A stretch of DNA of 64,000 nucleotides from Nodosilinea sp. FACHB-141 (GTDB lineage Bacteria; Cyanobacteriota; Cyanobacteriia; Phormidesmidales; Phormidesmidaceae). Of the stretch, positions 5,703 to 42,481 are shown in pieces; position 1 is the first letter of the stretch; each line of letters begins with the position of its first letter. The stretch is taken from contig NZ_JACJPP010000017.1 in assembly GCF_014696135.1 (NCBI RefSeq), positions 1 through 64,000 on the forward strand. Direction: 5' to 3'. The position numbers and the translations under genes are program-made. Below the pieces are notes generated by a model. It was not told the origin of the DNA and searched no databases. It was given only the letters and a program-made list of their open reading frames with translations.

Positions 5703-5719
5703 TCACTCATCGACCCATT

Positions 5720-12733: not shown

Positions 12734-12756
12734 GGCGGGAAAACGGCAATCGCCAA

Positions 12757-13437
12757 CCTGTAATGGAATATGGTGGCGTAGCGCGTCACCAGCGTCGGTC
12801 AGATCGAAAAGAGGGCGGCGAAGGAAATAGTTCCAATCGAAATCACTTGAAGAAAAGTCTCCAAATCGCTCCTGCAATATCGCTGTTGTCAGATCGCGCC
12901 GCTTGGGTAAGCGCGCTCTTTCGGCGGAGGCCAGTGCGTCGGGTTGCTTTGCTAGGGTAAGGTCAGTGCAGTAGACAGGCGCTCCCGGTTGCATCCGCCA
13001 GAAGTTTTTGAGTGAGCCAGCATCGAAGGCATCAAAACCTGTATCTGCCACCAGCGCCATCCCACTTCACGATCCCTGTCCCGATCTGCCGCCACAGGTA
13101 AAGCAATACGGCCTAGGCTTCCCGCAGGCTTTCCCTTGTTCGAGAAGGAGCCCGAAACAACGGTGTTCCAGGCTTTGACAATGGGCCGACCCAGTTGTTC
13201 AACGACCCACAAGCTCTCGACTTGTCCCGCGTCGATGGCCTCGATCCTGTTGTCGCGCACGGGGTGGTAGTTCGACGTGTCTATGGCAATGGTGTCCTCT
13301 AGCACGCCTGCGAACAAGGACGCAACCTTGGAGTAGCTGGTGGAATTGATGGAGAGAATGACAACGTCAACGTCCTGCACGGCTTCTGCGGCTGTAACGG
13401 CGCGGGCACCAAACTCCAGCGCATCGACGGGGTAAGA
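12757..13437 (-). pseudogene. Remnant of an NADPH-dependent F420-reductase-like oxidoreductase
   Basis: Minus-strand remains of an NAD(P)-binding reductase of the F420H2:NADP type. Frame one (about 13437-13065) reads through AEAVQDVDVVILSI, DTSNYHPVRDNRIEAID and GRPIVKAWNTVVSGS. The frame then shifts by about two extra bases near 13061-13064. A second frame continues as MALVADTGFDAFDAGSLKNFW to LFDLTDAGDALRHH. The N-terminal Rossmann GxGxxG segment is missing; a stop at 13438-13440 precedes the remnant. The 3' end runs into the antisense of the cyclase gene without a stop. It is 5'-truncated and frameshifted, so it cannot be functional. Confidence 0.7.
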
Positions 13438-13750
13438 TTATGATGCTGCTCTGTGGTGCAGGGCAACTAGTTTAGGCTATTATGCAGCCTGATCATGGGT
13501 TAACCCTCACATTTAAGGGCTCAACCTTCTCATTCCATCCAACATGATGAATGCCACAAAACCGTCGTTTCTAAAGAAGAAATGCTTTGATTTTGCTCAA
13601 TACCCATCTCATATCTATTAATAAACTGGCTTGAAGGGCATCGAGAGGCACCATAAGATTAGAGCGGATCCTATAGCTTGACTAGTCGATATAGTCTTGC
13701 CATTTTAGGCCCTAAAGCGTTTGGCTCAAAGAGTCAAAATGGAAGCAGTA
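13438..13750. other. Intergenic, nothing recognised
   Basis: An A/T-richer spacer between the reductase remnant and the response regulator. I find no open frame with family resemblance and no strong hairpin. Confidence 0.4.
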
Positions 13751-14191
13751 CTATACTGAAAAAACCAATTCTTCTGTACTACCCTGCGACTCGAAGCTTT
13801 TGATGCCAGATCTTGTGGCCAGGATTTGATCGACTGACTCAAGAATTGACTTTAAGCCAGCCCCCTTAGAAAGGACAGCATCAGCTGAGGGACAAATACC
13901 TTCTGCAGAACAGAGCATATCGTTAGTGAAGAATGCAGACATCAGCACTAACAGAGGCGGTTGGCCAAGTTCACTCTTGAGCTTACAGATGAGTTCAGCT
14001 CCGTCTAAAGCTCTTTGGTAGCTTCTACCGGGCAAACAGAAATCAACCAGTGCCAAGTCGAATTGGTGAGCAACTGGAATAAATTGAAAAGGGTCTTGGA
14101 AAGCTTTAGCCTTAAAACCTACTTGTTCTAAGGAGCAGGCGAGTGCAAAGCCCCATGCTTCATTGTCATCAATAACAGCAACCCGCATCAT
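13751..14191 (-). CDS. Single-domain response regulator (CheY-like receiver)
   Basis: 146 residues, essentially one receiver domain. The acidic pair is in VAVIDDNEAW (Asp 8-9). The phospho-acceptor Asp lies in LALVDFCLPG (about 50), the Ser switch in LVLMSAF (about 85) and the conserved Lys in AVLSKGAG (about 109). All residues needed for phosphotransfer are present. There is no output domain, so it probably relays phosphate or acts by protein contact. No histidine kinase is adjacent, making it an orphan here. The region upstream of its start carries a strong hairpin at 14518-14557. Confidence 0.85.
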   Translation of the reverse strand: MMRVAVIDDNEAWGFALACSLEQVGFKAKAFQDPFQFIPVAHQFDLALVDFCLPGRSYQRALDGAELICKLKSELGQPPLLVLMSAFFTNDMLCSAEGICPSADAVLSKGAGLKSILESVDQILATRSGIKSFESQGSTEELVFSV

Positions 14192-14717
14192 CTTTAATGA
14201 AACCTACCTAAATTATCCAAGTATCATTATCCAATTGCTTCTAATCCACTTTTACTGCACGAAGCACTTCTATGAGTCCTCCTCGGGAAGGATATCTTAA
14301 TAAAATCCAAAAAACAACAGCCCCTAAAACAACGCTCATACAGTTTTAAGAAGTGGTTTGGAATGATCTTTGGCTGTCTCTTGAGCCACTGAGAAATATT
14401 CAATTTTAATAATATTACTAAGCATGCTCAATTCTTGAATGCTTCTCAATCGCCTACTTGGCGAACAATTGAAAGACCCAGACAATTTCTGCACATTTCA
14501 AAAATTATGAGTGGTTATCTATCGTGTGGATGAAGATCTTTTCATCCACACGATAGACTAGAAGGCTCGCGGTGGCAGATAGGGTAGTAGCCATGTTATT
14601 CGCTGTTCGCCAAAAGGTTTTTCTCAGAAGCTCTTTTTTGGCAAGTTCAGCATTAGGAGGAGCACGCGGAATCTGCCGCACCTAATATTACGTCTTGATT
14701 GATAAGGAGAATCGGTT
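14192..14717. other. Divergent intergenic region with a strong hairpin
   Basis: This region separates the minus-strand response regulator from a plus-strand secreted protein, so it must hold promoters for both. No gene is visible. Its main structure is the 17-bp inverted repeat at 14518-14557. Confidence 0.45.
14518..14557. repeat. Perfect 17-bp inverted repeat, 6-nt loop
   Basis: TCTATCGTGTGGATGAA (14518-14534), GATCTT, then the exact reverse complement (14541-14557). It has no T-run and lies between divergent genes, so it is not a terminator. It may be a dispersed palindrome or a regulatory cruciform. Confidence 0.75.
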
Positions 14718-15161
14718 ATGAAGCTACCTACACTTAAAGCAAAAGGAGCTCTTACAGCAATTACTCTAATGCTGCCTTTAGGGCTAATTGGAACAGTAGT
14801 TTGGGAGCAAGAAGCAAGGGCACAACAAAATAGCCCTTCAAAACTATCTGACTCCTTACCGGATGGTGTATACCTCTACAGTGATGTGCCGCAGCCTGAC
14901 CAAATTCAGCATACCTACATCGTTTTTGAAAAGGAACAGGGCAAGGTCGTCGGAGCACTCTATACTCCTCAATCGGAATTTGCCTGCTTCACAGGAGAGC
15001 AGGAGGGGAATCAGTTAGAGGTTAAAGCTGTCCCATCCGAGGCTTCTCAAAGTTTTGAGGCCACCGCTAAACTCAGCGAACTTCATCGTATCGATTCCTA
15101 CAGCACGAATGACCAACGCATTCTCTCGATCTGCAAGCAGGATGCAACTAGCGTTAATTGA
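14718..15161 (+). CDS. Small secreted protein of unknown function
   Basis: 147 residues with a clear signal peptide: a Lys-rich start (MKLPTLKAKG), a hydrophobic core LTAITLMLPLGLIGTVV and a probable cleavage after ARA in EARAQQN (about residue 36). The mature part begins after SPSKLSDSLPDGVYLYSD and contains YIVFEKEQGKVVGALYTPQ, plus two cysteines that could pair. AAGGAG lies 8 nt before the ATG (ATAAGGAGAATCGGTT), supporting this start. I recognise the style of conserved cyanobacterial exported proteins but no named domain. Its job is unknown. Confidence 0.7.
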   Translation: MKLPTLKAKGALTAITLMLPLGLIGTVVWEQEARAQQNSPSKLSDSLPDGVYLYSDVPQPDQIQHTYIVFEKEQGKVVGALYTPQSEFACFTGEQEGNQLEVKAVPSEASQSFEATAKLSELHRIDSYSTNDQRILSICKQDATSVN

Positions 15162-15344
15162 TGACCTCAGTTGCCTTCCGAGAAACAGGGTGCCGAAGGA
15201 GGCTCCACAATTTCATCACAAAGAGGCGATTTAGGTCAGATTAGAGGGTCATGAATTGGGACAGGGGCACTATTCCCCTAGAAGGGAGTGGCTAATTCTC
15301 TCAGCAGCAGGGAACATAGGGCATGGAATGGGTTCTGAGGCTCT

Positions 15345-15602
15345 ATGGGCGTCTTTAGCGGTAAATCCCTACAGCAGGGAAAATATGTTGTTGAACAGGA
15401 ACTAGGCCGCGGCGGCTTTGGCATCACTTACAAAGCCAGAAATACCGTGCTGGCGCAAGCTGTGGTGCTGAAGACGATCAATGATGCGTTGCGTCAAGAG
15501 CCCCAATTTGAGGAGCACCAGAGGCATTTCCAGGATGAAGCCAAACGGCTAGCCCGGTACTCCCACTGGGTAGTTGATACGGCTCATGTGGTCTCCTCTT
15601 AA
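15345..15602 (+). pseudogene. Truncated N-terminus of a Ser/Thr protein kinase
   Basis: 85 codons that match only the start of a cyanobacterial PknB-type kinase: the glycine loop (LGRGGFGITYKA) and the ATP-binding Lys (VVLKTI), up to ARYSH. There the family would continue with a PxIV segment, but this frame diverges into VVDTAHVVSS and stops. The catalytic loop, DFG and the rest are absent and are not found in other frames downstream. It is therefore a 3'-truncated remnant with no kinase activity expected. Confidence 0.75.
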
Positions 15603-15978
15603 CCCCTCCCGCCGTGGAGTACCCATTGGGCATGTGACACTTGAACGAAAGGTTTTGTTTACAGACTTTTAGGGAATGTCCGTGTAGGGTAGCAACCCAA
15701 CATAGCGGTACAGCAGAAACTCATCAGCTTCTAGGTTTGAGCTTAAGAGATTTGGCGGCAAGTGCATTGTTGTAAGGGAAACCGATTAGGTTCCTGAAGA
15801 AGAGCAATGGGAACCGATGCATACCGCTGTCGTCAATGTTTCCATCCCTTGCTGGGCAAAACTTCTTAAATTAATCATCCAAAATAAAAACTCATTCAGA
15901 GTTGGGGATAGATCAGGTTCGCTTAGGTTTCGTAGTCTTAAGCTATCCATATCGGGATCGCATCCTCAGTCAGTTCCT
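15603..15978. other. Spacer after the kinase stub
   Basis: No downstream kinase sequence survives here. One frame stays open from 15817 into the next gene, but its first 54 residues look unconserved, so I place that gene's start at 15979. Confidence 0.35.
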
Positions 15979-16344
15979 ATGACAAGCAGTAATTCTTTAG
16001 CTTATAGAGGAATCAAGATTACCCTGATCATCTTGATGGCAATGGGGTTGACGATCGCCTCTTTGCGCTACAAGCAACCTGCTCATTGTGAAACACTTTG
16101 CAGAGATGCTCAATCCTGCCAAATTGGACAGTGCATGTTTGGTGAGCAGCAGGCAGGCTTCCCTCTGTCGTTTGTTCAAGATACGGAGGCTAATTCCCCT
16201 ACAAGTGGTTGGGGTAAGGTCGGACCAGAAGATTATTTCTATGCGAATCTTGAGGCATTTGCCCTCAATGTTGCTTTTTACAGTCTCATCCTATGGCTGT
16301 TTCAAAGGCTGCTTAAATGGCTTTTTTCGTCGTTTCAAACCTAA
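15979..16344 (+). CDS. Small membrane protein, unknown function
   Basis: 121 residues from the ATG at 15979 (an upstream ATG at 15817 would add 54). It has two membrane segments, an N-terminal one (GIKITLIILMAMGLTIASL) and a C-terminal one (ALNVAFYSLILWLFQRLL). Between them is a cysteine-rich loop (CETLCRDAQSCQIGQC), probably on the outside and disulphide-bonded. I do not recognise the family. It precedes the secreted repeat protein at 16413 by about 70 bp on the same strand, so the two may be co-transcribed. Confidence 0.55.
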   Translation: MTSSNSLAYRGIKITLIILMAMGLTIASLRYKQPAHCETLCRDAQSCQIGQCMFGEQQAGFPLSFVQDTEANSPTSGWGKVGPEDYFYANLEAFALNVAFYSLILWLFQRLLKWLFSSFQT

Positions 16345-16412
16345 TTCAGTATCAAGGGTGCATTTTCAGAGAACAGCCTCTTACTCAAACTTTCTAGCTC
16401 TATCGAGTCACT

Positions 16413-18149
16413 ATGAAATCTAACGTGCTCTGTGCCAAACTTCTCCTCCTAGCCGCCCTACCCGCTCTTGGAATACTTACCCCGAAACAAGCGATCGCCC
16501 TACCCGCTCCGGATCTGCAAGCCAGATTGCTGTCAGACATCGCCTTTCAATATGCAAAGCTGGGTGATTCGCAACAGGCATTTGCTATTTCTGAGCAGGC
16601 CCTGGAAGCAGCAGCGGCGATGCAACCCTGCTTCAAAGCAAATTCTCTAGCCAAGGTAGCGGGTAGCTACTGGCTAATTGGGCAGGAGACAGAAGGCAAG
16701 CGACAGGTTACAGAGGCCATTGAAACCGCCCGTACTCAGGAGGCAACCGGATGTAGTGGCAGTGCCACCTCTCCGACCGAATCGTTAATGAACCGGGCTG
16801 TGGAATTGTCCGACGAGGGGCAGTTTGAGTTAGCGATCGCGCTAGCCAGCGGGATGGGAGCCCCACTGGCCCTGTCGGAAATTGCAGCTGATTTGTTGGA
16901 CGTAGGACAATCTCGGCGAGCGGACGAGTTACTAAAGGAAGCGATCGCCCAGACACAAACGATTAAGGAAGCGCTCGGCCAGGCACAAACGACTAACGAT
17001 GCCTATTACCAAACGCAAACGTTGAACATGATGGGCATGAATCTGGCTCTAGCAGGGCATCCTGAGCCCGCAAAGATGGTGCTAGAACAGGCCATTCTGA
17101 GCGCGGAAACCGTGGAGACCGACAACCCCGAAAGGGCTTCGTTGCAGGGAAGTGCTCTGCTTTGGACGGCCCGGCAGTTTGTGGAGTTAGGTGCAAACGA
17201 TCGGGCGATCGCGGTTCTTGATCAAACCCTTCCCAAAATCCGTAACCTTCCTACTGCCCCGCTTCCCCTCGATAAAGTGATTCAGTTTGTCGATGCGGCG
17301 CTCCTTTACCAGCAGGTAGGTCTAAACGACAAAGCCGTGGCGACACTGGAAGAGGCCCATCAGGTTGGAAAAGCCATCGCTCCCGCTAATGCCTTGCGAG
17401 GTCGAGCCGATGCGGATGCGCTGGGTCGAGTAGCCGTTGGCCATGCCAAAATTGGCGACTTTGAGCGAGCCATGCAAATTGTCGAGGAAATCCAGCCGGT
17501 CAGCGAGCGGCAGGGGGCATTGGGAGACATTGCGATCGCCTATGCCGCAGCAGGTAATTTAGACGAGGCAGTCAAACTGGCGGAGTCTAACCCCAACCGT
17601 AACGGTGCGATGATCGGCATCGTCAGACACTATTTGCAAGAAAAGCAGCTAGATCAGGCGTGGCAGGTTGTTCAGGTACAGCAGGTCAAAGGCATCTTGT
17701 CAGAAGTGGCAGTTGGGTATCTCGATGCAGGCCAGCCTGAGCGGGCGTTGCAGCTCGTTCAAACCGGCAAGCTAGAGGGATTTATGCCAGACATCATGCA
17801 GGGCTATGCTGCGGCTGGGCAACCGGAGCAGGCAATGGAACTGGCTCAAAGTGAAGGCATCGAATGGCTCCTGCCCTCGGTGGTGCAAGGATTTGCTCAG
17901 CAAGGGCAGTTTGATGCTGCTTTGCAAACGGCGCAATCGATTGTCGAGCCGGTCGATCGCGCACAGGCGTTGATTGCGATCGCTCGTGCCTATACTGAGC
18001 CACCGGCTGAGGCACAAGGGATACGACGGTTCGTGACGCGGACGCAGGATAGGATTGTCGGGCTGTTTGGCACCTCCGATCGTGAACGAGCAGCTGAGGT
18101 GTTGGTACAAGCTCTACAAGCGACTCAATCTATCTCCTCAGAGGAATGA
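16413..18149 (+). CDS. Secreted TPR-like repeat protein
   Basis: 578 residues with a signal peptide (LLLLAALPALGILT, cleavage probably near AIALPAP). Degenerate TPR/helical repeats fill the whole mature protein: AFAISEQALEAAAAM, AVATLEEAHQVG, RAMQIVEEIQ, EAVKLAES, RALQLVQTGKLEGFMPDI, QAMELAQSEGIEWLLPSV. The last repeats are short and unusually regular (about 32-34 residues). Such proteins scaffold other proteins in the periplasm or outer membrane. No catalytic motif is visible. It follows a small membrane protein on the same strand. Confidence 0.75.
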   Translation: MKSNVLCAKLLLLAALPALGILTPKQAIALPAPDLQARLLSDIAFQYAKLGDSQQAFAISEQALEAAAAMQPCFKANSLAKVAGSYWLIGQETEGKRQVTEAIETARTQEATGCSGSATSPTESLMNRAVELSDEGQFELAIALASGMGAPLALSEIAADLLDVGQSRRADELLKEAIAQTQTIKEALGQAQTTNDAYYQTQTLNMMGMNLALAGHPEPAKMVLEQAILSAETVETDNPERASLQGSALLWTARQFVELGANDRAIAVLDQTLPKIRNLPTAPLPLDKVIQFVDAALLYQQVGLNDKAVATLEEAHQVGKAIAPANALRGRADADALGRVAVGHAKIGDFERAMQIVEEIQPVSERQGALGDIAIAYAAAGNLDEAVKLAESNPNRNGAMIGIVRHYLQEKQLDQAWQVVQVQQVKGILSEVAVGYLDAGQPERALQLVQTGKLEGFMPDIMQGYAAAGQPEQAMELAQSEGIEWLLPSVVQGFAQQGQFDAALQTAQSIVEPVDRAQALIAIARAYTEPPAEAQGIRRFVTRTQDRIVGLFGTSDRERAAEVLVQALQATQSISSEE

Positions 18150-18510
18150 GGGATGTGGGAGCGCAAGCAGTCGTTTTTGCGTTCTAAAACCGTCGTACTA
18201 CTGTCGCACATCAGGCCGCTGGAGCTGCCGTCGGAGGCATTGTCGATGACGCGCGCGATCAGCTCTGAAGCCTACCGCGTCAGTACTATGACTAAGTTGA
18301 ATGCATCGGCTGAGACGCAGTACAACCATTCTGGTGCAACGGACTAACGGAGTTACTTTTAGGATTACAAATTCTTTTGTAGTCGCAGCCAGAACCGTTA
18401 TCTGATGAGGACACGCAACCATTGCATTGAGTGACATTCGACTTGGAGTGCAGGTTGATGAAACTTAGCAGTCTTATCAGTAACACACCGATAGTGGTGT
18501 TCTCGCAGAG
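18150..18510. other. Intergenic, nothing recognised
   Basis: Short frames only, none with a convincing start or family motif. I see no strong hairpin. Confidence 0.35.
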
Positions 18511-18762
18511 GTGCTGGTGCAAAACAACGTATCAGTAGATGAAAGGTCGCAGGCTTGCGAGCAAGTCAGGAGACAATTTATTAGCCTTGTGCAGGATTAC
18601 ATCACAAGGCAGCCAACGGGATTAACACGAATTTTTGGTGCTTTTGAGCTTACCCGCAAGCCTCGCTCGGGCTCCAAAGTCGTGATTACTTTCGCGACTT
18701 CAGCGGAGCAGCCATTCATTCCGCTGAGTTTAACCACACCTGAGCTCCAATTCATAGCCTGA
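18511..18762 (+). CDS. Hypothetical small protein
   Basis: 83 residues that I do not recognise. It is soluble and basic in the middle (ELTRKPRSGSKVVITFATS), and the C-terminal SLTTPELQFIA overlaps the end of the convergent membrane-protein gene by 11 bp. The amino-acid composition is protein-like rather than shadow-like, and the antisense frame is not a known gene. No good ribosome binding site is seen. Confidence 0.4.
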   Translation: MLVQNNVSVDERSQACEQVRRQFISLVQDYITRQPTGLTRIFGAFELTRKPRSGSKVVITFATSAEQPFIPLSLTTPELQFIA

Positions 18763-19525
18763 TTCTGGAACGTCGAAACAGCAAAGCTGATCCGATAAAC
18801 ATCATGACGAAAAATGCGTTCAGACCCAGTACACCTAACACACCCATAGATGCTTCTACCGAGGTCACCTGAGGCTTGTTGATGATCAGTGCGATCACAG
18901 GAACCAATGCCTGAGCGAGTGCTGTTGTAATCAACGTACGTGCCATTCCCTGTGGCCGAAAACGCGCCATGGTGGCACCGAGGATTCCAATGGCGAGCAC
19001 TCCGAAATACATCAGGTTAACGGGGTTGTCCTCAGACCCGATGATCCCAACGGCAAGATTCATCCAGACGAGCAGGAACGCTGCCGCAAGGGCAATACCA
19101 ACAGCTACTCGGTATGCCATAGTGCCCCCTTTCTTCGCTACCAGTTCATAAGCGAGACCTGTACCAAAAATGAGGGCACCGGCAACAATGAAGTCGATCA
19201 AGTCCCAGACCATTTGATCGGTAAACAGCATCGCTAACAAGGGCAACAGCAATATGGATGCTGTCCCGAGCGCAAGGTAAATAATGTTTTTGTTTTGCAT
19301 AATGATATTTGTTATGTTCTCTCTCATAATTCCTGCAAATGTTTCGAGGAACATCCAAAGAGCGCAACCCAATAGCGCTCGTCTTTCCTCGGCACGCTCT
19401 CGGAGAAGATCAGTGAAAGTTTGCTTCATTCCCTCACCAAACCGCTCATAGTACGGCTTTGAATAGAGACGAAGCAGTTTTGCATACCAGTTTCGGTATC
19501 GTCGTATTAAGCGTTCAGATGTCAT
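18752..19525 (-). CDS. Multi-pass membrane protein coupled to a PadR regulator
   Basis: 257 residues from ATG 19525. The basic N-terminal segment (RLIRRYRNWYAKLLRLYSKPYYERFGEGMKQ is conserved in spacing; key residues Y, R, F, M) resembles the permease-prefix region found next to PadR-type regulators. About six hydrophobic helices follow, e.g. IIYLALGTASILLLPLLAM and VAVGIALAAAFLLVWM, ending in a basic tail RRSRIRL. The start lies 11 bp inside the padR gene, indicating translational coupling. A transport or stress-sensing role controlled by the PadR protein is inference; there is no ATPase nearby. Confidence 0.7.
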   Translation of the reverse strand: MTSERLIRRYRNWYAKLLRLYSKPYYERFGEGMKQTFTDLLRERAEERRALLGCALWMFLETFAGIMRENITNIIMQNKNIIYLALGTASILLLPLLAMLFTDQMVWDLIDFIVAGALIFGTGLAYELVAKKGGTMAYRVAVGIALAAAFLLVWMNLAVGIIGSEDNPVNLMYFGVLAIGILGATMARFRPQGMARTLITTALAQALVPVIALIINKPQVTSVEASMGVLGVLGLNAFFVMMFIGSALLFRRSRIRL

Positions 19526-19880
19526 ACGCAAAAGTATTCGGAAAGATCCGCTTCTGTTGTGCAACCATCAAAATTTCGCTGTATCGCTCCAATTCCGCGG
19601 CGAGTGCTTTTTTACCGAGTCCGGTGATTTTGTAATAGATCCGCCGCTCGTCGTCCATTGTTGGGTCTATCTTTTTGTCGCTCTCACCTATCAATCCCGC
19701 CTTGATCATGCGACCAATCGAGCCGTAGAGCGTTCCAGGCCCCATCTTTACCTTTCCCTGTGAATCCGACTCGACCTGCTTCATGATTTCATAGCCATGG
19801 CTCTCCTGTGTGGAGAGTGCAAGAAGGATATAAAACACTGCTGGAGTAAGGGGTTTATGGGTTGTATTCTTTTTAGCCAT
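19515..19880 (-). CDS. PadR-family transcriptional regulator
   Basis: 121 residues with the PadR winged-helix signature: LTPAVFYILLALSTQESHGYEIMKQVE, then GPGTLYGSIGRMIKAGLI and RRIYYKITGLGKKAL. Residues GYEI, GTLY and YYKIT are the family hallmarks. PadR proteins are usually repressors that bind palindromes in their own promoters. A perfect 9-bp inverted repeat starts 10 bp upstream of the start codon. The gene overlaps the downstream membrane-protein gene by 11 bp, so the two form a self-contained regulated unit. Confidence 0.92.
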   Translation of the reverse strand: MAKKNTTHKPLTPAVFYILLALSTQESHGYEIMKQVESDSQGKVKMGPGTLYGSIGRMIKAGLIGESDKKIDPTMDDERRIYYKITGLGKKALAAELERYSEILMVAQQKRIFPNTFAYDI

Positions 19881-19889
19881 GCTTCATAC

Positions 19890-19908
19890 TATATCCGCTG
19901 CGGATATA
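19890..19908 (-). promoter_or_regulatory. Putative PadR operator
   Basis: TATATCCGC-T-GCGGATATA is a perfect inverted repeat with 9-bp arms and a 1-nt centre, just upstream of the padR start. Its A/T ends (TATAT/ATATA) fit PadR operators, and its position would block transcription or translation initiation of the padR-membrane protein unit. Confidence 0.65.
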
Positions 19909-20251
19909 TGTCAATGCGATACCAAGAGGCAGCGATCGCGCTCATCTAAAACATAATCAGTGGCAATCGGTTTAGACTGCGTTCTGATGCGATCGCCACT
20001 AGGTTGCAACCGTTTCAGACCATGATTCTGAAGACAGGGGATTAGGGGCGATCGGTGAAGTGTTTCGAGATCAGGAGTTGAAGTGATCAAAGGTGGTGTT
20101 AAGACAACTTTGAATGAGCAGACGATACTGCTGGAAGGTAGCCAAGGTGACCATCGATCAAACCGAATGCTCAATGGCCTCAACCTACTGAAGGCTTTTA
20201 GGCGGCTGGCGATCGCATTTGCCTAAAGCTAAACTTGTGGCGGTCGATGTG
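19909..20251. other. Intergenic, nothing recognised
   Basis: Contains several HIP1 octamers. A 90-codon minus-strand frame (19911-20183) has no family resemblance I can defend. No gene is called. Confidence 0.35.
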
Positions 20252-20500
20252 ATGGCAGCGATCAAGTGCAAGGAATGTGGCCGCGATGCGAGCAGCAAAG
20301 CGAAGCCGTCCCCTACTTGCGGAGCACAAGTGACAGGCACTATGGAGTCGGTGGTTTGGTGGACGATAGTAGGAGTCTTTTCTGCCGCCGCACTGGGTTG
20401 TGCATATCTTCAGGACTTATCAAATCAGTGCTGTGCGGATGGGCTTGAGCGGGAGTCCGGGGGATTGATGCAATCAGCAAGAGCAGGATACCCCTGCTAA
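20252..20500 (+). CDS. Small zinc-ribbon-like membrane protein, degenerate
   Basis: 82 residues from the ATG at 20252. The N-terminus (IKCKECGRDASSKAKPSPTCGA) matches the common zinc-ribbon opening IKCPECG...KACPNCGA. The second knuckle has lost its first cysteine (SPTC instead of CPNC), leaving three of four ligands. A membrane segment (VVWWTIVGVFSAAALGCAY) follows. The tail after it looks unconserved. This could be a decaying copy; zinc binding is doubtful. Confidence 0.5.
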   Translation: MAAIKCKECGRDASSKAKPSPTCGAQVTGTMESVVWWTIVGVFSAAALGCAYLQDLSNQCCADGLERESGGLMQSARAGYPC

Positions 20501-20633
20501 GTATTAGCTGTCCCACCGGTGAACTACTCAACCCACTCCAAAGCCACAGCTAAGCCATCCAGCTACCCCTGCGCGGGCCTCGACTAATTGGGGCAATCTA
20601 GGCTCAGCATATTTGTGATACATCCTGAGAATT

Positions 20634-20668
20634 TCCCACTGGCTGCACTGGCCGGTGGGATTTATTTT
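20634..20668 (+). terminator. Probable intrinsic terminator
   Basis: TCCCACTGGC and GCCGGTGGGA form a 10-bp stem (one G-T pair) around a 7-nt loop, followed by TTTATTTT. It lies 134 bp after the zinc-ribbon gene on the same strand. Confidence 0.7.
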
Positions 20669-20729
20669 GGTCGGTGCTGACCATTGACCGCGATGCTTAA
20701 ACCGTTTATGTGGCGATCGCGTGGTCAGG

Positions 20730-21557
20730 CTATTGGGCGGGCGGAGCGGGTTGCTGAAGGTTGATAAACGGGACGGTTTCGCCCGTCACTTGAGGGAGAA
20801 CCCCGTTCCACTTTTCGATGGCACGTTGCTGGAGTAGTTCGGCGGAGATGGACTCTTGCTGAAGGCGGTTAGCTTCTGCCTGAGCGCGGGCGGTCGCGAC
20901 CGTTGCCTCACCGTTGGCCTTTGCCTTCTCTACTTCCTGTCGCGCCCGCTCAGCCTCCTGCTTGGCCGTGATGACAGAGTTGATGGCAGCCTGCAACTCT
21001 GCGTCTGGACGGAGGGAGACAAAGCTGATGGAGTGGACCTGGAAGCCGAGGGGATCTAGGTCAGACTGAATCTCCTTGAGGACGGTATCGAGGAACAAGC
21101 TTTTCTGCTCTCCGTAAATTTCGATTGCTTTCATAGTGGAGCCGACTCGGTTGAAGGAGTCCTGCACCATACGTCGAACGTACACATCCGCAATCATTTC
21201 AGGGGACTGGCGAAACTCAGAAAAGATTTGCTCGGCCTTGTCGGGGGCGAAGCTGTAGGAGATAGCCACGTCTGCCGTGAAGCTAGCGCCCTCAGATGAG
21301 TTGAGGGTAATCTGCTCATTCTGGTCAGGGTTGTCGCTGCGCTCCCAAACCAGGTTTTGGCGGTAGGTGGGGAAGTTGTAGATGTCCTCGGTCACCGGGT
21401 TGACACCGTAGCGCCCCACCTCAAGGGTTTCCATCTGACCACGCTTGCCGCCTGCCTGGTAGACCTTTACACCAACATTGCCGGGAGGGACGGTAGCGCA
21501 GCCGCCGAGAAGAGTAGCAGAAAGAACGATCGAGATTCCAAGGGTCTTGGTCTTCAT
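20730..21557 (-). CDS. SPFH/Band 7 (prohibitin-like) lipoprotein
   Basis: 275 residues. A lipoprotein signal (lipobox LLGGC, Cys about 20) anchors it to a membrane outside the cytoplasm. Residues about 25-200 are an SPFH/Band 7 domain (PPGNVGVKVY, GRYGVNP, FTADVAISYSFAP, SVRRM-type segment VYVRRMVQDSFNRVGS). An Ala/Glu-rich helix follows (KQEAERARQEVEKAKANGEATVATA is the central pattern; key residues A, E, R). SPFH proteins form ring assemblies that organise membranes or shield proteases. Its start overlaps the stop of a 56-aa membrane protein by ATGA, so both are probably made together. Confidence 0.88.
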   Translation of the reverse strand: MKTKTLGISIVLSATLLGGCATVPPGNVGVKVYQAGGKRGQMETLEVGRYGVNPVTEDIYNFPTYRQNLVWERSDNPDQNEQITLNSSEGASFTADVAISYSFAPDKAEQIFSEFRQSPEMIADVYVRRMVQDSFNRVGSTMKAIEIYGEQKSLFLDTVLKEIQSDLDPLGFQVHSISFVSLRPDAELQAAINSVITAKQEAERARQEVEKAKANGEATVATARAQAEANRLQQESISAELLQQRAIEKWNGVLPQVTGETVPFINLQQPAPPAQ

Positions 21558-21724
21558 TTGATTTGCGCCAAAGCGTAAAGGACAGAGAGTGTGCCTGCCA
21601 GACCCAGGATTACTGAGGCTGGCAGGGCAAAAGGAAAGGCAGCATTGAAAGCTTCTTTTGCCAGCAGAAACAAGATGACTCCGCTCGCTAGCGGGAAAAA
21701 TACGTTGAGCGTCTTCCGGATCAT
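21554..21724 (-). CDS. 56-aa two-helix membrane protein coupled to the SPFH lipoprotein
   Basis: An ATG at 21724 opens a 56-residue frame ending in TGA. That TGA overlaps the ATG of the SPFH gene (ATGA), a classic coupled junction. The protein has two hydrophobic helices, LNVFFPLASGVILFLLA and PFALPASVILGLAGTLSVLY, and a short Lys-ended tail. I do not recognise a family. The junction and clean membrane pattern make it likely to be real, despite being short enough to be missed by routine gene calling. Confidence 0.65.
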   Translation of the reverse strand: MIRKTLNVFFPLASGVILFLLAKEAFNAAFPFALPASVILGLAGTLSVLYALAQIK

Positions 21725-21786
21725 GGCTAAATAGGGTTCTGGATTTGTAGGATGGTCAGCCTTGCAAGCCTGTCCTTGAGGGGTAG

Positions 21787-22026
21787 ATGGTCCAAGTATT
21801 CCCTGAAGTGTTCGATCGCTTCATTTCACTGATGACTCCACGTGCGATCGCGACCCTGATTCCGTTGTGCCCGTTGGTTGAGTAGCTAGGGCACTATGCG
21901 TCAACCCTAGCTGAAGTAGATAAGTGGATTGTGATTCCACCGTTCAACAGTTCACAACGCTTTGCCCAGTACACTTGGGCAGTGCTCAAAAAAGCGTTCT
22001 CAGAAGTATTCTCAAAATCGCGCTAA
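21787..22026 (+). pseudogene. Broken small gene with internal TAG
   Basis: A 79-codon plus-strand frame is interrupted by TAG at codon 33 (21883-21885). Both sides look like protein: FPEVFDRFISLMTPRAIATL before it, and EVDKWIVIPPFNSSQRFAQY plus TWAVLKKAFSEVF after it. This suggests a gene inactivated by one nonsense mutation. I do not recognise the family, and no tRNA suppression is implied. Confidence 0.4.
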
Positions 22027-22042
22027 CCCACTCTGAATCGCG

Positions 22043-22258
22043 TTACAGCAGGTTCAATTGCTGTACCTTGGGCTGGTCCACTTCATCGGGTATCGCTGGC
22101 CTCAGCTCTGCCAAATGGCCTTTCCAATCAGCCTCAGCATCGACGTAACCATATTTTTAGCCCCCCTTGGACACCATTCCAGTGCGGCCATCGGGCAAGA
22201 CAACGCGATCGCCATAGTCAAAGCCGTGGGGGTTGAATTGGTGCAATTCATACTCTGC
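22043..22258 (-). pseudogene. Gene remnant with internal stop
   Basis: A minus-strand frame reads YELHQFNPHGFDYGDRVVLP and DGRTGMVSKGG, then hits TAA (22157-22159). It continues as KYGYVDAEADWKGHLAELRP before a natural TAA at 22043. The GDRVxLPDGRTGxV pattern is typical of small beta-barrel proteins. There is no start codon in frame upstream. Probably a decayed, 5'-truncated gene of unknown function. Confidence 0.35.
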
Positions 22259-22261
22259 TGA

Positions 22262-22687
22262 GTTTTTGGAAATATGCTGACTTTGGGATCAATACATTTA
22301 TTTTTCTGATGCTCGGCATTGAGATTAATCTAGTCTTAATCGCTCACTTATAGCAAAGGGCATGCTAATTGCTAGTTAAAATTGATTGCAAACCGTATCG
22401 TGGTATACTAAAAAATGTTTACCTGAATTAAGAGCTAAGCCTGTTAGGAAAATGAATGCTGACGTTCATCGACACTTAAAATCTGCTAAAAAAGCAGTTG
22501 CAAATTCAAACTTTGATCACTTTGCCGCTCGGCACTGGGAAAGAACAGTCAAGCAGAAGTTGCTGTAATCGCTTCGCTGTAGTAGCACTGTGCGACTTGA
22601 ACCCCACCAAGTTTTGCTATAAATTGCTAGCCGCTTTAGATCCTAGTTGAAAGACAAGGGTGGTCACTTCAGTTTATCAACCTGAAG
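22262..22687. other. Intergenic, little recognisable
   Basis: A/T-rich sequence. A short plus-strand frame (22452-22568; KSAKKAVANSNFDHFAARHW) could encode a 38-residue peptide, but nothing else supports it. Confidence 0.3.
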
Positions 22688-22846
22688 ATGATTGTCATAC
22701 AGTTTTTTTTGGGAATCTATTTAGGTTGGATTCGTAATCCATTCATTGGATTCGGAAAGTTGCATGGGTATTCCATGCAACTTCAATTTCATGCGCTCAA
22801 TATTCTTCTTTTTGCCCCTGCGTTAACTCTTTTTTCACTGAGTTAA
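22688..22846 (+). CDS. Possible 52-aa membrane peptide
   Basis: An ATG-to-TAA frame of 52 codons. Its hydrophobic start (MIVIQFFLGIYLGWI) and hydrophobic C-terminal stretch (ALNILLFAPALTLFSLS) would fit a small membrane protein. No clear ribosome binding site and no known family; it could be chance. Confidence 0.22.
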   Translation: MIVIQFFLGIYLGWIRNPFIGFGKLHGYSMQLQFHALNILLFAPALTLFSLS

Positions 22847-23004
22847 TACCACTTATATCACAGCCAATTTGCTTTGCACGATGTGAAGACTCAGCAAGAG
22901 AGCCTTTCAGAATGTGCTTACTAGTTTGAGATATCTATCAACAGTTGGCTTTTACTCCTCTCTTTCACATGCCTCAAAAAATTTTCGTCATTGATTAGTT
23001 TGTC

Positions 23005-23214
23005 ATGGTGCTTACTCCGCTTATAACCTCACTTGCGATCGCCTGTTTTGCCCTGTATCTCAGGAAAATGGCACAGGAAGAGATGGTCAGGATATTTGCC
23101 GCAATTGTATCGCTTCTAAGTTTGCTCGCAAGTCTTACTCTAGCTCCCTGGTTTATTCAAGCGTTACTTCTGATTGTTATCTTGATGTCTTGGCGTAATT
23201 CAGTTGTTCGCTAA
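23005..23214 (+). CDS. Small two-helix membrane protein
   Basis: 69 residues with two membrane helices, PLITSLAIACFALYL and a longer C-terminal one spanning LASLTLAPWFIQALLLIVILM. The LAPW-x-IQ motif recalls small conserved cyanobacterial membrane proteins, but I cannot name the family. It stands alone between remnants. The start (GTC-ATG-GTG) lacks an obvious Shine-Dalgarno sequence. Confidence 0.5.
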   Translation: MVLTPLITSLAIACFALYLRKMAQEEMVRIFAAIVSLLSLLASLTLAPWFIQALLLIVILMSWRNSVVR

Positions 23215-23351
23215 ATCTATTGTTGTTTTCAATTGTCTAATAATTCTTCTTCAGTTACTGCAGGAAAATTCAAGTGAAAAAGGAAAAGTTTCAAGAGGGT
23301 AGGATCAATGATTGTCCCTCATATTGCCTCTCAAACCGTTAGGTGAAACGA

Positions 23352-23500
23352 GTTGGGCTAGGCCAACTTTCGCTTGACGGATTACCCCAGTATCGAGCAT
23401 CTATGGGAGATTATCTTCTGTGCTTACTTGATGATTAGTTTCCATACAAAGCACTTCTGTCAGCATGCCCCAATATGGCTGGGGGCTCGGCTTTTTTGCC
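23352..23500 (+). pseudogene. C-terminal fragment of an IS4/IS701-like transposase
   Basis: The plus-strand reading LG-stop-ANFRLTDYPSIEHLWEIIFCAYLM resembles the LGWADYRLTDYxxIExWWE region near the end of IS4-superfamily transposases, with the Trp codon mutated to TAG. The frame then loses resemblance. No inverted repeats or flanking duplications are recognisable. Family assignment is from memory and tentative. Confidence 0.4.
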
Positions 23501-23690
23501 TCACCCTGGATCTTCTCAATGAACGGCTTCAGAAGCTTTTCCATGCGCTGATTGTCGATATAGCGGCTGATGGCATCGTTGTCGCCCCGCTCAGTGCTGG
23601 CCCCTCTTTGCCCGCGATAGGTACCATCGGCAGCGATCGCCTTGCAGTAGCCGCTGCTCAGCGACCCAATTTACGGATTGATAAGGGCTA
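23401..23690 (-). pseudogene. Unidentified gene fragment antisense to the transposase remnant
   Basis: A minus-strand frame without a start codon reads SGYCKAIAADGTYRGQRGAS, then NDAISRYIDNQRMEKLLKPF and IEKIQGEAKKP, before running into the antisense of the transposase fragment and a TAG at 23401-23403. The first 60 codons look coding and the rest do not. It appears to be a 5'-truncated gene joined to IS debris. Function unknown. Confidence 0.3.
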
Positions 23691-23759
23691 TGAGGTTCAG
23701 CCCATGAGCCAGCAAAGCGCCTTATTCTGAGTAGAGTTATTGCCAGAAGGCCGCAAACT

Positions 23760-24305
23760 ATGTCTATCGCTACAGCTGAGAACGGCTGGGTCAATACTGT
23801 TGATGGTCAAACTCCAGAGGTAATCATCAGGGCACGAAAAATCCTTGAGGGTACTATCTACGGCACCCCCTCCACCAGTTCCCCCGATGGCTTGCCCTGG
23901 GTCTCCCCACTCTTCTTCACCTACGATTCTGACTGGAACCTGTACTGGTCTTCAGCAATGGTGGCCCAGCACTCTCAAAACCTCTATGCCAACCAGGGTC
24001 GGGCTGCGATCGCCATTTACAGTACAGATCGGGAAGAGGGCAAAGGCCAAGGGCTTTATCTCTCTGGCACTGCGGCTGAAGTAGAAACAGAGGATATGGA
24101 TCGGGTGATTCCCCTTCTGCTAAAGCGGGCAGCTAAGGGCCAGCAGCGATCGCCTGCTGATTACCTCGCCCCATCCCCTCGACGGCTCTATCGGTTCCAG
24201 CCCCAAACAGTTTGGATCACTGGAGAGCGTATAGCCTTCAGTGAGACCGTTTTGATAGACACGAAGATTCAGCTCAATCTAGCCAGCCTAGTCACTAGGT
24301 TTTAG
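23760..24305 (+). CDS. Pyridoxamine 5'-phosphate oxidase-like flavin-binding protein
   Basis: 181 residues with a split-barrel FMN-binding fold of the PNPOx-like superfamily. It shows YGTPSTSSPDGLPWVSPLFF (first strands), NLYWSSAMVAQHSQNL (a typical WxSxxxxxHxxNL motif) and AAIAIYST...GLYLSGTA. Members oxidise or reduce small molecules with FMN or F420, or bind haem; which applies here is unclear. It is about 35 residues longer at the C-terminus than the minimal domain. It has no operon partner, since the next gene is convergent. Confidence 0.82.
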   Translation: MSIATAENGWVNTVDGQTPEVIIRARKILEGTIYGTPSTSSPDGLPWVSPLFFTYDSDWNLYWSSAMVAQHSQNLYANQGRAAIAIYSTDREEGKGQGLYLSGTAAEVETEDMDRVIPLLLKRAAKGQQRSPADYLAPSPRRLYRFQPQTVWITGERIAFSETVLIDTKIQLNLASLVTRF

Positions 24306-24355
24306 CTTCCTATCAAATCATCTACTCACAGCGTTTCTATTTAGGAAAGGTTCAA

Positions 24356-25162
24356 CTATGGCCAGCTCGTTTCAAAACTATCCTGGCCACTGCCATAGAC
24401 CAAATCTCCAAACTGCTGCCAATGCACAATTTCGTGTTCGGACATGGGCGGAGATGTGAGGGCAGCAAGATTATCTTCCAATAACTGGAGGGTTTTGGGA
24501 GCCGTTAGCACTAACCGAATAGCGGGTTGGTACAATCCAAAGCGATAACAATCAGAAGCTGTTGGCGGGGCAGTAAGCCAATCTGTAGGTTTTTGCAGGA
24601 GCGTTCCCCAACGAGTGCTTGTAAAAGCGACGACCGGGATTTTAGCGGCCTCTGCCATGGGAAACACGGTTTCTTCAGCCTTACGGTGAGCCATGTTGTA
24701 GCGATGCATTAGAACATCACAGAGAGATTCTTGGATAAGCTGCTGGGCGATCGCTCGATTATGGGTTGTGATGCCCACATACCGAATTACCCCATCAGAT
24801 TTCCAACGATAGAGCTGATCCGCCAGGGCCCTTACCTGCTGCCAATCATCGGTAGGGGAGACATATTCGGCAAAGAGCACGTCTATTGTGTCGATGTCGA
24901 GGGTCTGCTGTACCTGCTCAATGTACTTTCGCCAATGGCCAATCTCTCGCTTCTCGCTCCCTGTAGCCACAATGACGGACTCTCTATGCTGCCGTAATAG
25001 CTGCTTCAAATCATTAACAATGGGGCTATCTCCAATGCCATAGGAAAAGAAGTAATTGACGCCAGCTTGCCAAGCCAGATCAACACAGCCCGCCTCCATA
25101 GTCTGCTGTACTGCTAGTCCAAGCATGCTGGCGGGGTTGCCCTGAATTGTTTGAATGTCCAT
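24356..25162 (-). CDS. Aldo/keto reductase-family protein lacking key catalytic residues
   Basis: 268 residues with an AKR-type TIM barrel: LAWQAGVNYFFSYG (position of GxNxxDTAxxYG), SVIVATGSEKRE, IDVLFAEYVSP (position of xDxxxLHxxD), WKSDGVIRYVGITTHNRAIA and LMHRYNMAHRKAE. The catalytic Tyr of the YG motif may be kept, but the Asp of DTA and the His of LHxxD are replaced. It may be a non-classical reductase or a non-enzymatic member. Length is short for AKRs (usually about 310-330). It is convergent with the PNPOx-like gene. Confidence 0.72.
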   Translation of the reverse strand: MDIQTIQGNPASMLGLAVQQTMEAGCVDLAWQAGVNYFFSYGIGDSPIVNDLKQLLRQHRESVIVATGSEKREIGHWRKYIEQVQQTLDIDTIDVLFAEYVSPTDDWQQVRALADQLYRWKSDGVIRYVGITTHNRAIAQQLIQESLCDVLMHRYNMAHRKAEETVFPMAEAAKIPVVAFTSTRWGTLLQKPTDWLTAPPTASDCYRFGLYQPAIRLVLTAPKTLQLLEDNLAALTSPPMSEHEIVHWQQFGDLVYGSGQDSFETSWP

Positions 25163-25242
25163 AGCGGTTTTGTCTCCACAGACTCAAGAAAGGCAGGAAA
25201 CCACTACCTCGACGTTAAATTAAATCCTTGACCCCTAAAACG

Positions 25243-25565
25243 CTACGCATTTTTATCTTCTTCAATGAAGGGTACAGCGATTGCATCAGCATCTACCAGC
25301 ATCAGTCGATGGGCTTTGCCCTCAACCTTTTGCTTGAGCTTGTCCATTGTCGCCTCTGAAATATCACCCGGGCGTAGGCATAGTCAAGCTTGACCATAAG
25401 CAGAGCGATCTGCCCGGTGCCAATACCAGACTCAAGAAAGGTGGTGTCGGGGGTAGCCTGCCCCAGCCTTAAAATCTCAACCGTAAGCCGTTCAGACACC
25501 TCTGGAGCCAGGGTGCGGGTATTGTCGTAGAAATCAGCGGCTCGGTTGAAGGAAATGGCCATCAA
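25243..25565 (-). pseudogene. Truncated, frameshifted SAM-dependent methyltransferase
   Basis: The N-terminus FNRAADFYDNTRTLAPEVSE and the glycine motif (FLESGIGTGQIAL) identify a class I methyltransferase. After LDYAYARV the frame shifts; the next frame continues with DISEATMDKLKQKVEGKAHR and LVDADAIAVPF, then stops at 25243. The catalytic C-terminal half is absent, so this is a pseudogene. Confidence 0.75.
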
Positions 25566-25638
25566 TTCTTCCTGGGGCAGTTCTAGCTCTTAAGCTACCA
25601 GCCGCAGGCGATCCACTTGGCTAACCATCATCAATTTA

Positions 25639-26547
25639 ATGCCGATGCTAATTCAACTCCTGCCCATGATCCTGGTGGCTTGCTTGGGGTTTGGGCTGAG
25701 GCGAGCTGGGGTGCTGCACTCTGGCGATGCCAAGACCATTGGCAAGCTGCTGACTACGCTGGTGCTTCCAGCAGTAATTCTGCGGGCGCTGGCCACCGTC
25801 ACCTTTGCCCCAGAACTTATCTACCTGCCCCTGTCTGCTTTAGTAGTCGTGGCGGGCCTAACAGCGATCGCCTTCTCCGGAGTTTGGTGGTTCAAGTGGG
25901 ACAAACCAAAGGCTGGGGCTCTGATGACCACCTTTCCCACCTTTGAGGGCGGTGCGGTGGGGTATCCCATTATGCTGCTCACCTTTGGCGATCTGGGTCT
26001 CAGTCGAATTGTGTTGTTTGACCTAGCCCAGGCCATCTATCTGTTCACGGTGGTCTACTGCCTCTCCGCTTGGTTTGGCCGAGCTGAGGTCACAGGCCGG
26101 GCGGTAGCTCTGAAGCTGGCCCAAACGCCTTTCTTCTGGGCCATTGTGCTGGGTCTACTACTCAACGCTCTGGGCTGGATGAATGAGGTGCTGCTGGGCC
26201 TGCTGAACATTGCCGAGGGGAGCTTTTTGCTGCTGGTGCTCCTGCTACTGGGAATGGAGTTTCAGGTTCAACTTGCCTCTGTAGGGCGTTATGCCCTCCT
26301 GGTACTAGCCAAGATTGGCTGCGGGTTAAGCTTGGGCTGGGCAGCTACCCAAGCCTTTGGTCTTCAGGGTGTGGAGCAGGCCGCTGTCCTCGCCGGAGCA
26401 GCCCTACCCCCTAGCCTGCTAACCCTACTCTTCGCCCAAGAGAACGATCTCGACACTCGCTTTGTTATTAGCTTTATCTCCGCTGCGGTACCTCTTTACC
26501 TGGCGATAGTGACTCCCCTTCTAGTCCATTTATCGCTGTTACCCTAG
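25639..26547 (+). CDS. AEC-family transporter (auxin efflux carrier fold)
   Basis: 302 residues and about ten membrane helices in the AEC layout. N-terminal features are LPMILVACLGFGLRRAGVL and LVLPAVILRAL. The conserved central motif is FPTFEGGAVGYPIML (the GxxGxP region). The C-terminal half is LGMEFQVQLASVG, VLAGAALPPSLLTLLFAQEN. AEC proteins export small organic acids or other metabolites in bacteria; the substrate here is unknown. The gene starts about 75 bp beyond the divergent methyltransferase remnant. ATG 25645 is an alternative start. Confidence 0.88.
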   Translation: MPMLIQLLPMILVACLGFGLRRAGVLHSGDAKTIGKLLTTLVLPAVILRALATVTFAPELIYLPLSALVVVAGLTAIAFSGVWWFKWDKPKAGALMTTFPTFEGGAVGYPIMLLTFGDLGLSRIVLFDLAQAIYLFTVVYCLSAWFGRAEVTGRAVALKLAQTPFFWAIVLGLLLNALGWMNEVLLGLLNIAEGSFLLLVLLLLGMEFQVQLASVGRYALLVLAKIGCGLSLGWAATQAFGLQGVEQAAVLAGAALPPSLLTLLFAQENDLDTRFVISFISAAVPLYLAIVTPLLVHLSLLP

Positions 26548-26700
26548 CTAGGCTAGGTATCCTGGCACGGCCAACAATAGAAGAGCAATGGTGCAAGAGG
26601 CGATCGCCCTAATATGCCGTGAGCTTTAGTTGCCCTCACCATTGCAGTTGCACATTTTAGAATATAAGCAAATCTGAAAAATAGGCCATTTTCTCAATCA

Positions 26701-26737
26701 CCCCAAAGCTAAAGATATATCTTTAGCCAAATTGGGG
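26701..26737. repeat. Strong composite hairpin
   Basis: CCCCAA (26701-26706) and TTGGGG (26732-26737) flank a perfect 20-bp palindrome with arm GCTAAAGATA (26708-26727). It lies between the AEC transporter and the tRNA fragment. It could terminate the AEC transcript, although no T-run follows, or belong to a recombination site. Confidence 0.65.
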
Positions 26738-26825
26738 GCAGAGACAGTTTTAGTTCAAAATTGGATCGTTTAAAACAGTTGAACGCCAAACCTTTTGACT
26801 TAAGAGCGTTTTAGACATTGACACT

Positions 26826-26883
26826 TCAGTCTCGAAAACTATTTTGGGAAAACCCAACGGGGGTTCGAATCCCTCCCTCTCCG
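26826..26883 (+). tRNA. tRNA-Ser(CGA) 3' fragment (non-functional)
   Basis: The sequence has an anticodon loop CTCGAAA (anticodon CGA at 26833-26835), a class II variable arm (TTGGG-AAAA-CCCAA), a T arm (GGGGG-TTCGAAT-CCCTC) and a 3' acceptor strand CCTCTCC plus discriminator G. The matching 5' acceptor strand (GGAGAGG) and the D arm are absent upstream, and homology fades at the anticodon stem. This is the 3' part of a tRNA-Ser gene, most simply explained as the displaced end left by integration into the anticodon loop. Confidence 0.75.
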
Positions 26884-27034
26884 TTTTGTCATTGTGCATT
26901 GCCTGCAGGCTTGCCTATTCGGACTGGTGCCAGTAGTTCAATCTGGAGTTACGAGCACCAGTCCAAAACAAGCAGCGTTTTGCGCCTAATAGAGCCCAAA
27001 ACAAGCAAGCAGGAGATTCAGGATTGAGCTTGAC
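26884..27034. other. Spacer with a long-range inverted repeat
   Basis: GGACTGGTGC (26921-26930) and GCACCAGTCC (26955-26964) are perfect 10-bp arms separated by 24 nt, just beyond the tRNA fragment. No gene is present. Confidence 0.5.
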
Positions 27035-27604
27035 CTAAGCCGCCTGGGCTTGGGCTGGGTGCTTGCCCTCACAAAATTCCTCCACAATTTTGCTGTTGAA
27101 GGCGGGCAAATCGTGAGGGTTGCGGCTGGTGACTAGCCCCTGATCGACGACCACCTCTTGATCAACCCAGGTGGCACCGGCATTGCTGAGGTCGGTCTTT
27201 AGAGAAGGCCAGGAGGTGACGGTGCGACCCTTGACCACATCGGCTTCAATCAGCGTCCAAGGCCCGTGACAAATTGCCGCTACGGGTTTGCTATCGGCAA
27301 AGAACGCTTTGATAAACTGAACCGCCTGCTCGTTAGTTCTCAGCTGGTCGGGATTTAGCACCCCACCGGGCAACACGAGAGCGTCGTAATCGCTGGCCTG
27401 AACCTGATCAAGGGTGCGATCGACCGGCACTGGGTCGCCTTTGTCATGGTGGTTCCATCCTTGAATGGAGTCGCCCTCAGGGGCGATCACATGCACTTGG
27501 GCACCGGCTTGTTCTAGGGCCTGTTTGGGCTCGGTTAGCTCAACTTGCTCAAATCCATCGGTGGCTAAAATTGCCACTTTGCGGTTTTTAAGTTTTTGGG
27601 CCAT
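27035..27604 (-). CDS. DJ-1/PfpI family protein (type 1 glutamine amidotransferase-like)
   Basis: 189 residues. The fold motifs are VAILATDGFEQVEL (catalytic-site Glu), DYDALVLPGGVLNPD and the nucleophile elbow AAICHGPW (Cys about 116, followed by His). The C-terminal NPHDLPAF is typical of the PfpI/YhbO subgroup, described as proteases or deglycases acting on glycated proteins in stress. Length is normal. It stands alone on the minus strand. Confidence 0.9.
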   Translation of the reverse strand: MAQKLKNRKVAILATDGFEQVELTEPKQALEQAGAQVHVIAPEGDSIQGWNHHDKGDPVPVDRTLDQVQASDYDALVLPGGVLNPDQLRTNEQAVQFIKAFFADSKPVAAICHGPWTLIEADVVKGRTVTSWPSLKTDLSNAGATWVDQEVVVDQGLVTSRNPHDLPAFNSKIVEEFCEGKHPAQAQAA

Positions 27605-34282: not shown

Positions 34283-34283
34283 T

Positions 34284-41383: not shown

Positions 41384-41437
41384 CGTCGAATTTGGCCCAA
41401 CCCAATGGACGTTTGCAGTACAACCGACGAATCTGGC

Positions 41438-42481
41438 CTAGTCTCGCTCTAACACGCCCACCTGGCGGAGCCCAGCCAAACTTTCTTGCCCGGTGCAGAA
41501 TAGTACTGTCCTAATCTCGGCCACCAGCACTTCCGCCAGGGCTGCCACGGCCTCCTCTGACTCACTCGCCGCCTGCAAAAACGGCATCGCTAGCCCTGCC
41601 AAATCGGCTCCCAAGGCCAAGGTTTTTGCCACATCCAGCCCGTGGCGCAATCCTCCGGAAGCAATCAGCGGCAGGGTCGGAGCCACCCGCCGCGCTTGCA
41701 CAATGCAGTCTGCCGTGGGCAAACCCCATTCCCCAAAGGTCTGCCCCAGCCGCCGCTGGTGGGTATCGATCGCCCGCTCACTTTCTACCCTAGCCCAGGA
41801 TGTGCCCCCGGCTCCGGCCACATCCACGGCTGCGACCCCGGCCTCCACTAGCCGCTGCACCATGGGGGCCGAAATGCCGTTGCCGACCTCCTTGGCAATC
41901 ACCGGCACCGGCAACACCGCGCAGAGCTGCTCAATCTTGCCTAGCAGACCCTTAAAGTTGGTATCGCCGCCGGTCTGCACCGCCTCCTGCAGGGGGTTAA
42001 GGTGCAAGATCAGCGCGTCAGCCGCCAGCTTATCTACCACACGGCGGCAGTGGTCGAGACCGTAACCATAGTTGAGCTGCACTGCCCCCAGATTCGCCAG
42101 CAGCAGAATGTCGGGAGCCTGCGATCGCACTGCAAACGTATCCATCACGTCAGGATTTTCGACCCCGACCCGTTGAGAGCCGACCCCCATGGCCAGCCCG
42201 TAGCGCTGGGCCACTGCCGCCAGTCGCCGGTTAATCTCGTGCGCCGCCTCGGTGCCCCCAGTCATCGACGAAATTAGCAGCGGTGCTCCCAGTCGGTGCC
42301 CCAGAAACACCGTGCTCAGGTCGATGTCTTGGTAGTCGAGTTCCGGTAGACAGCAGTGGGTAAACCGATAGCGCTCTAGCCCTGTGGTTACCTGGGCACA
42401 CTGCACCGGCCCCTCTAGGCAAATGCGCAGGTGGTCGGCCTTGCGGGTCTGGGTCTCATGGGCGACAGGCAGTAGAGTCAC
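41438..42481 (-). CDS. fni: Type 2 isopentenyl-diphosphate delta-isomerase
   Basis: 347 residues. An FMN- and NAD(P)H-dependent enzyme that interconverts isopentenyl and dimethylallyl diphosphate for carotenoids, quinones and phytol. Visible motifs are [12 protein letters not shown] at the start, [20 protein letters not shown] (FMN site), [49 protein letters not shown] and [22 protein letters not shown] (phosphate binding). Length is typical. It is followed on the same strand by no close partner; pyrR lies 88 bp upstream. Confidence 0.95.

Follow-up and report, generated by a model that had tools for sequence, protein, structure and literature searches.

The closest described systems are the class A islands of the Islander collection. 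Anticodon-centred sites account for 2083 of its 3919 islands, and the class A arrangement comprises a regenerated tRNA gene, a displaced 3' fragment in the same orientation, an integrase carried by the island, crossover in the anticodon loop, and tandem arrays (PMC4383910). The locus described here is alike in these features, with the crossover in the loop presumed; only the host group and the target gene differ, together with the state of the element, whose integrase is dead and whose cargo is decayed. The tycheposons of Prochlorococcus (PMC10872708) are broadly similar, being cargo islands of a cyanobacterium that sit next to a tRNA gene and have a tyrosine recombinase; the target here is tRNA-Ser(CGA). 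Integrative mobilizable and conjugative elements offer a third comparison: in one relative (G015) the start of the element has a TrwC relaxase gene behind the integrase, but there is no relaxase among the 19 proteins scanned from the present island. Literature searches listed no account of tRNA-Ser(CGA) as a hotspot in this cyanobacterial group. The island itself is ordinary in kind, and the hotspot is the more useful result.

The window analysed covers the opening 64 kb of the 107,227-bp contig C17 of Nodosilinea sp. FACHB-141 (G000), with the contig end at window position 1. We conclude, with a probability of about 0.93, that positions 26827-26884 are the right attachment site of an old, decayed integrative island in the anticodon loop of tRNA-Ser(CGA). 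The features concerned are as follows.

1..26826, no strand: right part of the decayed island, which would continue on C9:1-15981 (pieces collinear with G008 between tRNA and fragment; contig-end analysis)
26701..26737, no strand: strong inverted repeat inside the right end of the island (z -4.6; similar sequence in G008)
26827..26884, plus strand: displaced 3' portion of tRNA-Ser(CGA), taken as the right attachment site (match to intact G000:C9:15982-16068)
26831..26837, plus strand: anticodon-loop heptamer CTCGAAA, presumed crossover region (minimal core common to the loop-keeping displaced fragments)
26918..26967, no strand: hairpin lying right of the scar, before the DJ-1/PfpI-like gene (fold z-scores; arms in G008 and G019)
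27035..27604, minus strand: presumed DJ-1/PfpI-like gene, first gene right of the scar and outside the island (adjoins the fragment in G008 and G019)
41437..43165, plus strand: start of a conserved chromosomal stretch (in G020 ~147 bp after the intact tRNA-Ser(CGA))

Aligned with the intact tRNA-Ser(CGA) gene of this genome, the fragment is 93% identical along 58 nt (E 2.0e-18), with four substitutions. It begins 4 nt ahead of the anticodon loop and holds four bases of the anticodon stem on its 5' side, then the loop, the variable arm, the T-arm and the acceptor strand to the 3' end; nothing tRNA-like lies upstream of it, and ARAGORN found no tRNA in the window. A first-pass annotation of this DNA had read a tRNA-Ser(CGA) truncated to the part from the anticodon stem onward, and the alignment bears this out, although its span of 26701-26964 contains the scar and is wider than it. 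The intact gene that this annotation proposed to look for is present on a separate contig, at C9:15982-16068 on the minus strand, with an integrase remnant beside it.

Retention of the T-arm and the acceptor strand might suggest that the fragment is a working RNA, such as one half of a split tRNA. However, an intact tRNA-Ser(CGA) exists, the fragment folds no better than shuffled sequences (z 0.07), and it has decayed differently from its counterpart in G008, the two carrying 4 and 3 substitutions, respectively, with none in common. Such wholly private changes point to drift after displacement, as expected of a functionless scar, and on the fold and the substitutions we rejected a functional fragment RNA, the chance of which we regard as negligible. 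Rfam gave no match in the window at gathering scores. At lax thresholds the best match near the scar is a weak antisense one at 26839-26883 to the plastid family Plastid-psbl-rps4 3'UTR; the family consensus looks like an antisense trnS 3' end, and the match was therefore rejected as a new RNA.

Two inverted repeats flank the fragment. The left one, at 26701-26737, lies ~90 bp inside the island and has a fold z-score of -4.6, with 0 of 200 shuffles folding as well; the right one, at 26918-26967, scores -5.1 on the plus strand and -6.7 on the minus strand, again with 0 of 200 shuffles in each case. Neither has sequence in common with the tRNA core, so that the strong repeats of the first-pass annotation are real but do not belong to the scar or to attachment sites. 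Both arms of the right repeat are kept in G008 and G019 despite base changes (alignment read by eye). This conservation, and its position behind the gene at 27035-27604, which we take from its sequence to be DJ-1/PfpI-like, make it probably the 3' hairpin of that gene.

The complete structure is seen on a single contig in the close relative G008, where C13 carries the intact tRNA (93770-93684), a decayed tyrosine integrase, cargo and the fragment (71825-71768), tRNA and fragment being on the same strand and separated by 21,858 bp. Sequence upstream of this tRNA is 94-96% identical to C9, sequence beyond the fragment is 98% identical to the window from 26949 on, and the cargo is collinear in pieces with C9:6518-15408 and with window 5974-26826. 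The layout confirms that the element lies to the left of the fragment. A decayed island does occupy the region of ~13-26 kb that had been proposed as the element, but its extent is greater, ~43.6 kb if the two contigs are joined as argued below, and it runs past the left end of the window onto C9.

In the FACHB-141 assembly the halves of the island are on separate contigs, which counts against our reading, and only through a C9-C17 join would the fragment lie downstream of the intact gene in the same orientation. The sequences C9:1-172 and C17:1-163 correspond to opposite ends of a gene region present twice in this genome, one full copy of which measures 1,040 bp in G008; from a motif we take its product to be a short-chain-dehydrogenase-like protein. 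The end pair of the other copy terminates contigs C25 and C16, and G017:C19 has C25-like and C16-like sides on one contig, flanking the dehydrogenase-like gene. This contiguity partners C25 with C16 and leaves C9 and C17 as partners. The C9:1 and C17:1 ends are in the orientation the island requires, and we infer that they join through the duplicated gene, giving an island of 15,981 + about 780 + 26,826 bp, or roughly 43.6 kb, divided between the two contigs. The assembly breaks at G000 C9:1, C17:1, C16:41026 and C25:123618 fall inside the two dehydrogenase-like gene copies, and the AraC-type neighbour of this gene is likewise duplicated. An insertion sequence at the contig break was considered and dropped, since the repeat encodes what presumably, from its motif, is a dehydrogenase-like protein.

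The integrase expected to the left of the window was found on C9 beside the intact tRNA, 0.1-0.8 kb downstream of it, albeit as a frameshifted and stop-ridden remnant: it consists of five pieces in different frames with internal stops and reads as a pseudogene. The homologue in G019 is nearly whole, with two in-frame stops, and the open frames that adjoin the intact tRNA-Ser(CGA) in G012, G010, G015 and G009 measure 356-368 aa. Two homologues were scanned against Pfam PF00589 (Phage_integrase); that of G010 scored above the cut-off (E 2.9e-7) and that of G012, which has LRQ where relatives have LRH, below it (E 0.025). A scan of public genomes, one per species, gave 19 loci with relatives of the integrase. 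Ten of these have an intact tRNA-Ser(CGA) ~120-150 bp upstream, six of which apparently overlap the same-genus genomes compared here, the remaining four being from PCC 7375, Adonisia, L. ectocarpi and a Xenococcaceae MAG. Two further loci (Adonisia turfae and Leptolyngbya PCC 7375) have a displaced tRNA-Ser(CGA) fragment upstream, and one (Calothrix PCC 7103) has tRNA-Cys there; the other six have no tRNA in the upstream stretch examined. The PCC 7375 loci fit the same layout, about 35 kb apart by coordinates. Three cyanobacterial plasmids match the integrase over 93-97% of its length at 31-35% identity. A phage origin is unsupported, a search of 50,697 phage records having returned 14 weak matches that cover at most 33% of the query.

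The best explanation is that a tyrosine integrase carried out recombination between the attachment site of the island and the tRNA-Ser(CGA) anticodon loop. The island would have brought a replacement 3' half that left the tRNA gene whole, now on C9 with the integrase adjacent, and the original 3' half would have been displaced to the far end of the island, where it is now 26827-26884. Subsequent decay would then have reduced the integrase to a pseudogene while the displaced half drifted. Integration into the anticodon loop, as first proposed for this fragment, is supported by the intact tRNA with its adjacent integrase remnant and by the G008 layout, and the crossover itself would have fallen within the loop.

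Displaced tRNA-Ser(CGA) fragments are also present in G008, G019, G009, G012, G015, G007, G010 and, in a shorter form, G022. In these relatives the homology begins 0-5 nt before the anticodon loop, with the exception of G022, where the loop is gone. The distance from tRNA to fragment on single contigs is 31.0 kb in G019, 33.5 kb in G012 and 84.1 kb in G009, all in the same orientation; where intact gene and fragment share a contig (G008, G019, G012 and G009), order and orientation agree in 4 of 4. Among 22 intact tRNA-Ser(CGA) loci from 23 same-genus genomes, FACHB-141 included and G021 (a weak match only) left out, a displaced fragment accompanies 9 of the 11 that have an integrase trace and 0 of the other 11 (Fisher p 2.2e-4), a value that is optimistic, the true weight being less given the shared ancestry of the genomes, and that uses class lists compiled by hand in which G017 is assigned to the integrase class by DNA similarity alone and the tRNA-Ser(UGA) fragments of G001, G019 and G022 are excluded. 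G017 has the integrase trace and the same right flank and is without the fragment. A partial duplication or rearrangement of the tRNA gene, with no integrase involved, could also leave such a piece, and the right flank is indeed rearranged close to the fragment (see below); yet a near-identical 5' limit at the anticodon arm in several genomes, in the same orientation and tracking the integrase, argues for integration, and we consider duplication very improbable.

Displaced 3' pieces resembling tRNA-Ser(UGA) were seen in G022 (C323:3708-3753), G019 (C19:92116-92069) and G001 (C127:36995-37081 and 31961-31922), in the last of which such a piece lies ~5 kb downstream of an intact tRNA-Ser(UGA). 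This second serine tRNA seems also to be used as a docking site.

That FACHB-141, G008 and G019 have flank and fragment in common suggests an old event, after which the cargo turned over. G019 has the orthologous fragment with different cargo; it also has the integrase, its tRNA and fragment are 31 kb apart, and on this account it would show turnover behind an old scar. A sister strain that keeps the fragment and lacks the accessory genes had been named as evidence against integration; G019 touches on this case through its different cargo, yet it also has the integrase and the 31-kb interval.

We scanned 19 proteins of the FACHB-141 island, 10 from open reading frames of the window and nine from C9:1-12609; a tenth C9 protein, PmbA/TldD, lies outside the island. 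The cargo includes a chromate transporter, an FG-GAP/RTX-repeat protein, a large kinase-AAA-cyclase, response regulators, an ABC transporter, an HlyD-like protein, an alcohol dehydrogenase and an AraC regulator. PADLOC, run on 10 window proteins, returned nothing but TPR matches. In G012 the interval from tRNA to fragment (C10:308054-341548) holds two helicases, one DruE-like and one DrmD-like, along with pieces of a type IIG restriction enzyme. In G015 (C9:11520-33817) a SAVED protein accompanies the TrwC relaxase gene downstream of the integrase, with type III-B CRISPR genes farther along; the right boundary in G015 is not on that contig. From these sequences tRNA-Ser(CGA) is best read as a reusable docking site in the genus, and the anti-phage defence genes at this tRNA in two relatives make it a place to seek new ones. 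For FACHB-141, the scar gives a precise right edge to the accessory region of roughly 43.6 kb and indicates that the island genes entered, or were replaced, behind a single integration site.

A further alternative is that the fragment is at the same time the left end of an older, second island in tandem to the right, so that 26.9-41.4 kb would be foreign too. In G012, G009, G007, G010, G015 and G022 what follows the fragment resembles the left end of another element, in some with an integrase, and the islands there look to be tandem; moreover, G020 lacks the 26.95-41.3 kb block next to its tRNA. Against this, a search that covered C17 found no integrase trace to the right of the fragment, and in G004 the block runs on unbroken into the 41.4 kb flank, as does its right part in G010, with no tRNA-Ser(CGA) between. 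We regard a second island at this position as unlikely.

The chromosome to the right of the fragment was rearranged near the scar, with one breakpoint between 26885 and about 26950. The DJ-1-like gene is common to the right flank of G008, G019 and the fragment-less G017; we rejected it as the original neighbour of the tRNA, as it is located elsewhere in G004, G011, G012 and G009. In G004 the block equivalent to 26950-43165 is contiguous, ~60 kb upstream of its tRNA-Ser(CGA) and in the opposite relative orientation. G020 lacks the window 26885-41437 block beside its tRNA and keeps ~60 bp resembling the left end of the element; it may be a deletion derivative. Because the right flank is rearranged there is no simple empty-site comparison. 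Comparison with strains lacking the insert, as had been suggested, was thus made among these relatives but gave no clean empty site with both flanks, the closest being G020, without the 26.9-41.4 kb block and with the left-end-like remnant, and the right flank is relocated in an outgroup.

A broader reading would make tRNA-Ser(CGA) a long-lived hotspot in Nodosilinea and relatives, with an integrase family of its own and tandem, mobilizable defence islands, in which the integrase acting at scars also drove the rearrangement whose breakpoint lies at most about 65 bp from the fragment. Inspection by eye found no attachment-like sequence at the G004 end of the block, so nothing ties the rearrangement to the integrase, and this combination as a whole appears quite doubtful. 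We also note, at 55940-57631 of the window, an array in which a 123-bp unit recurs 13.8 times (88% matches) and which probably encodes a 41-residue protein repeat.
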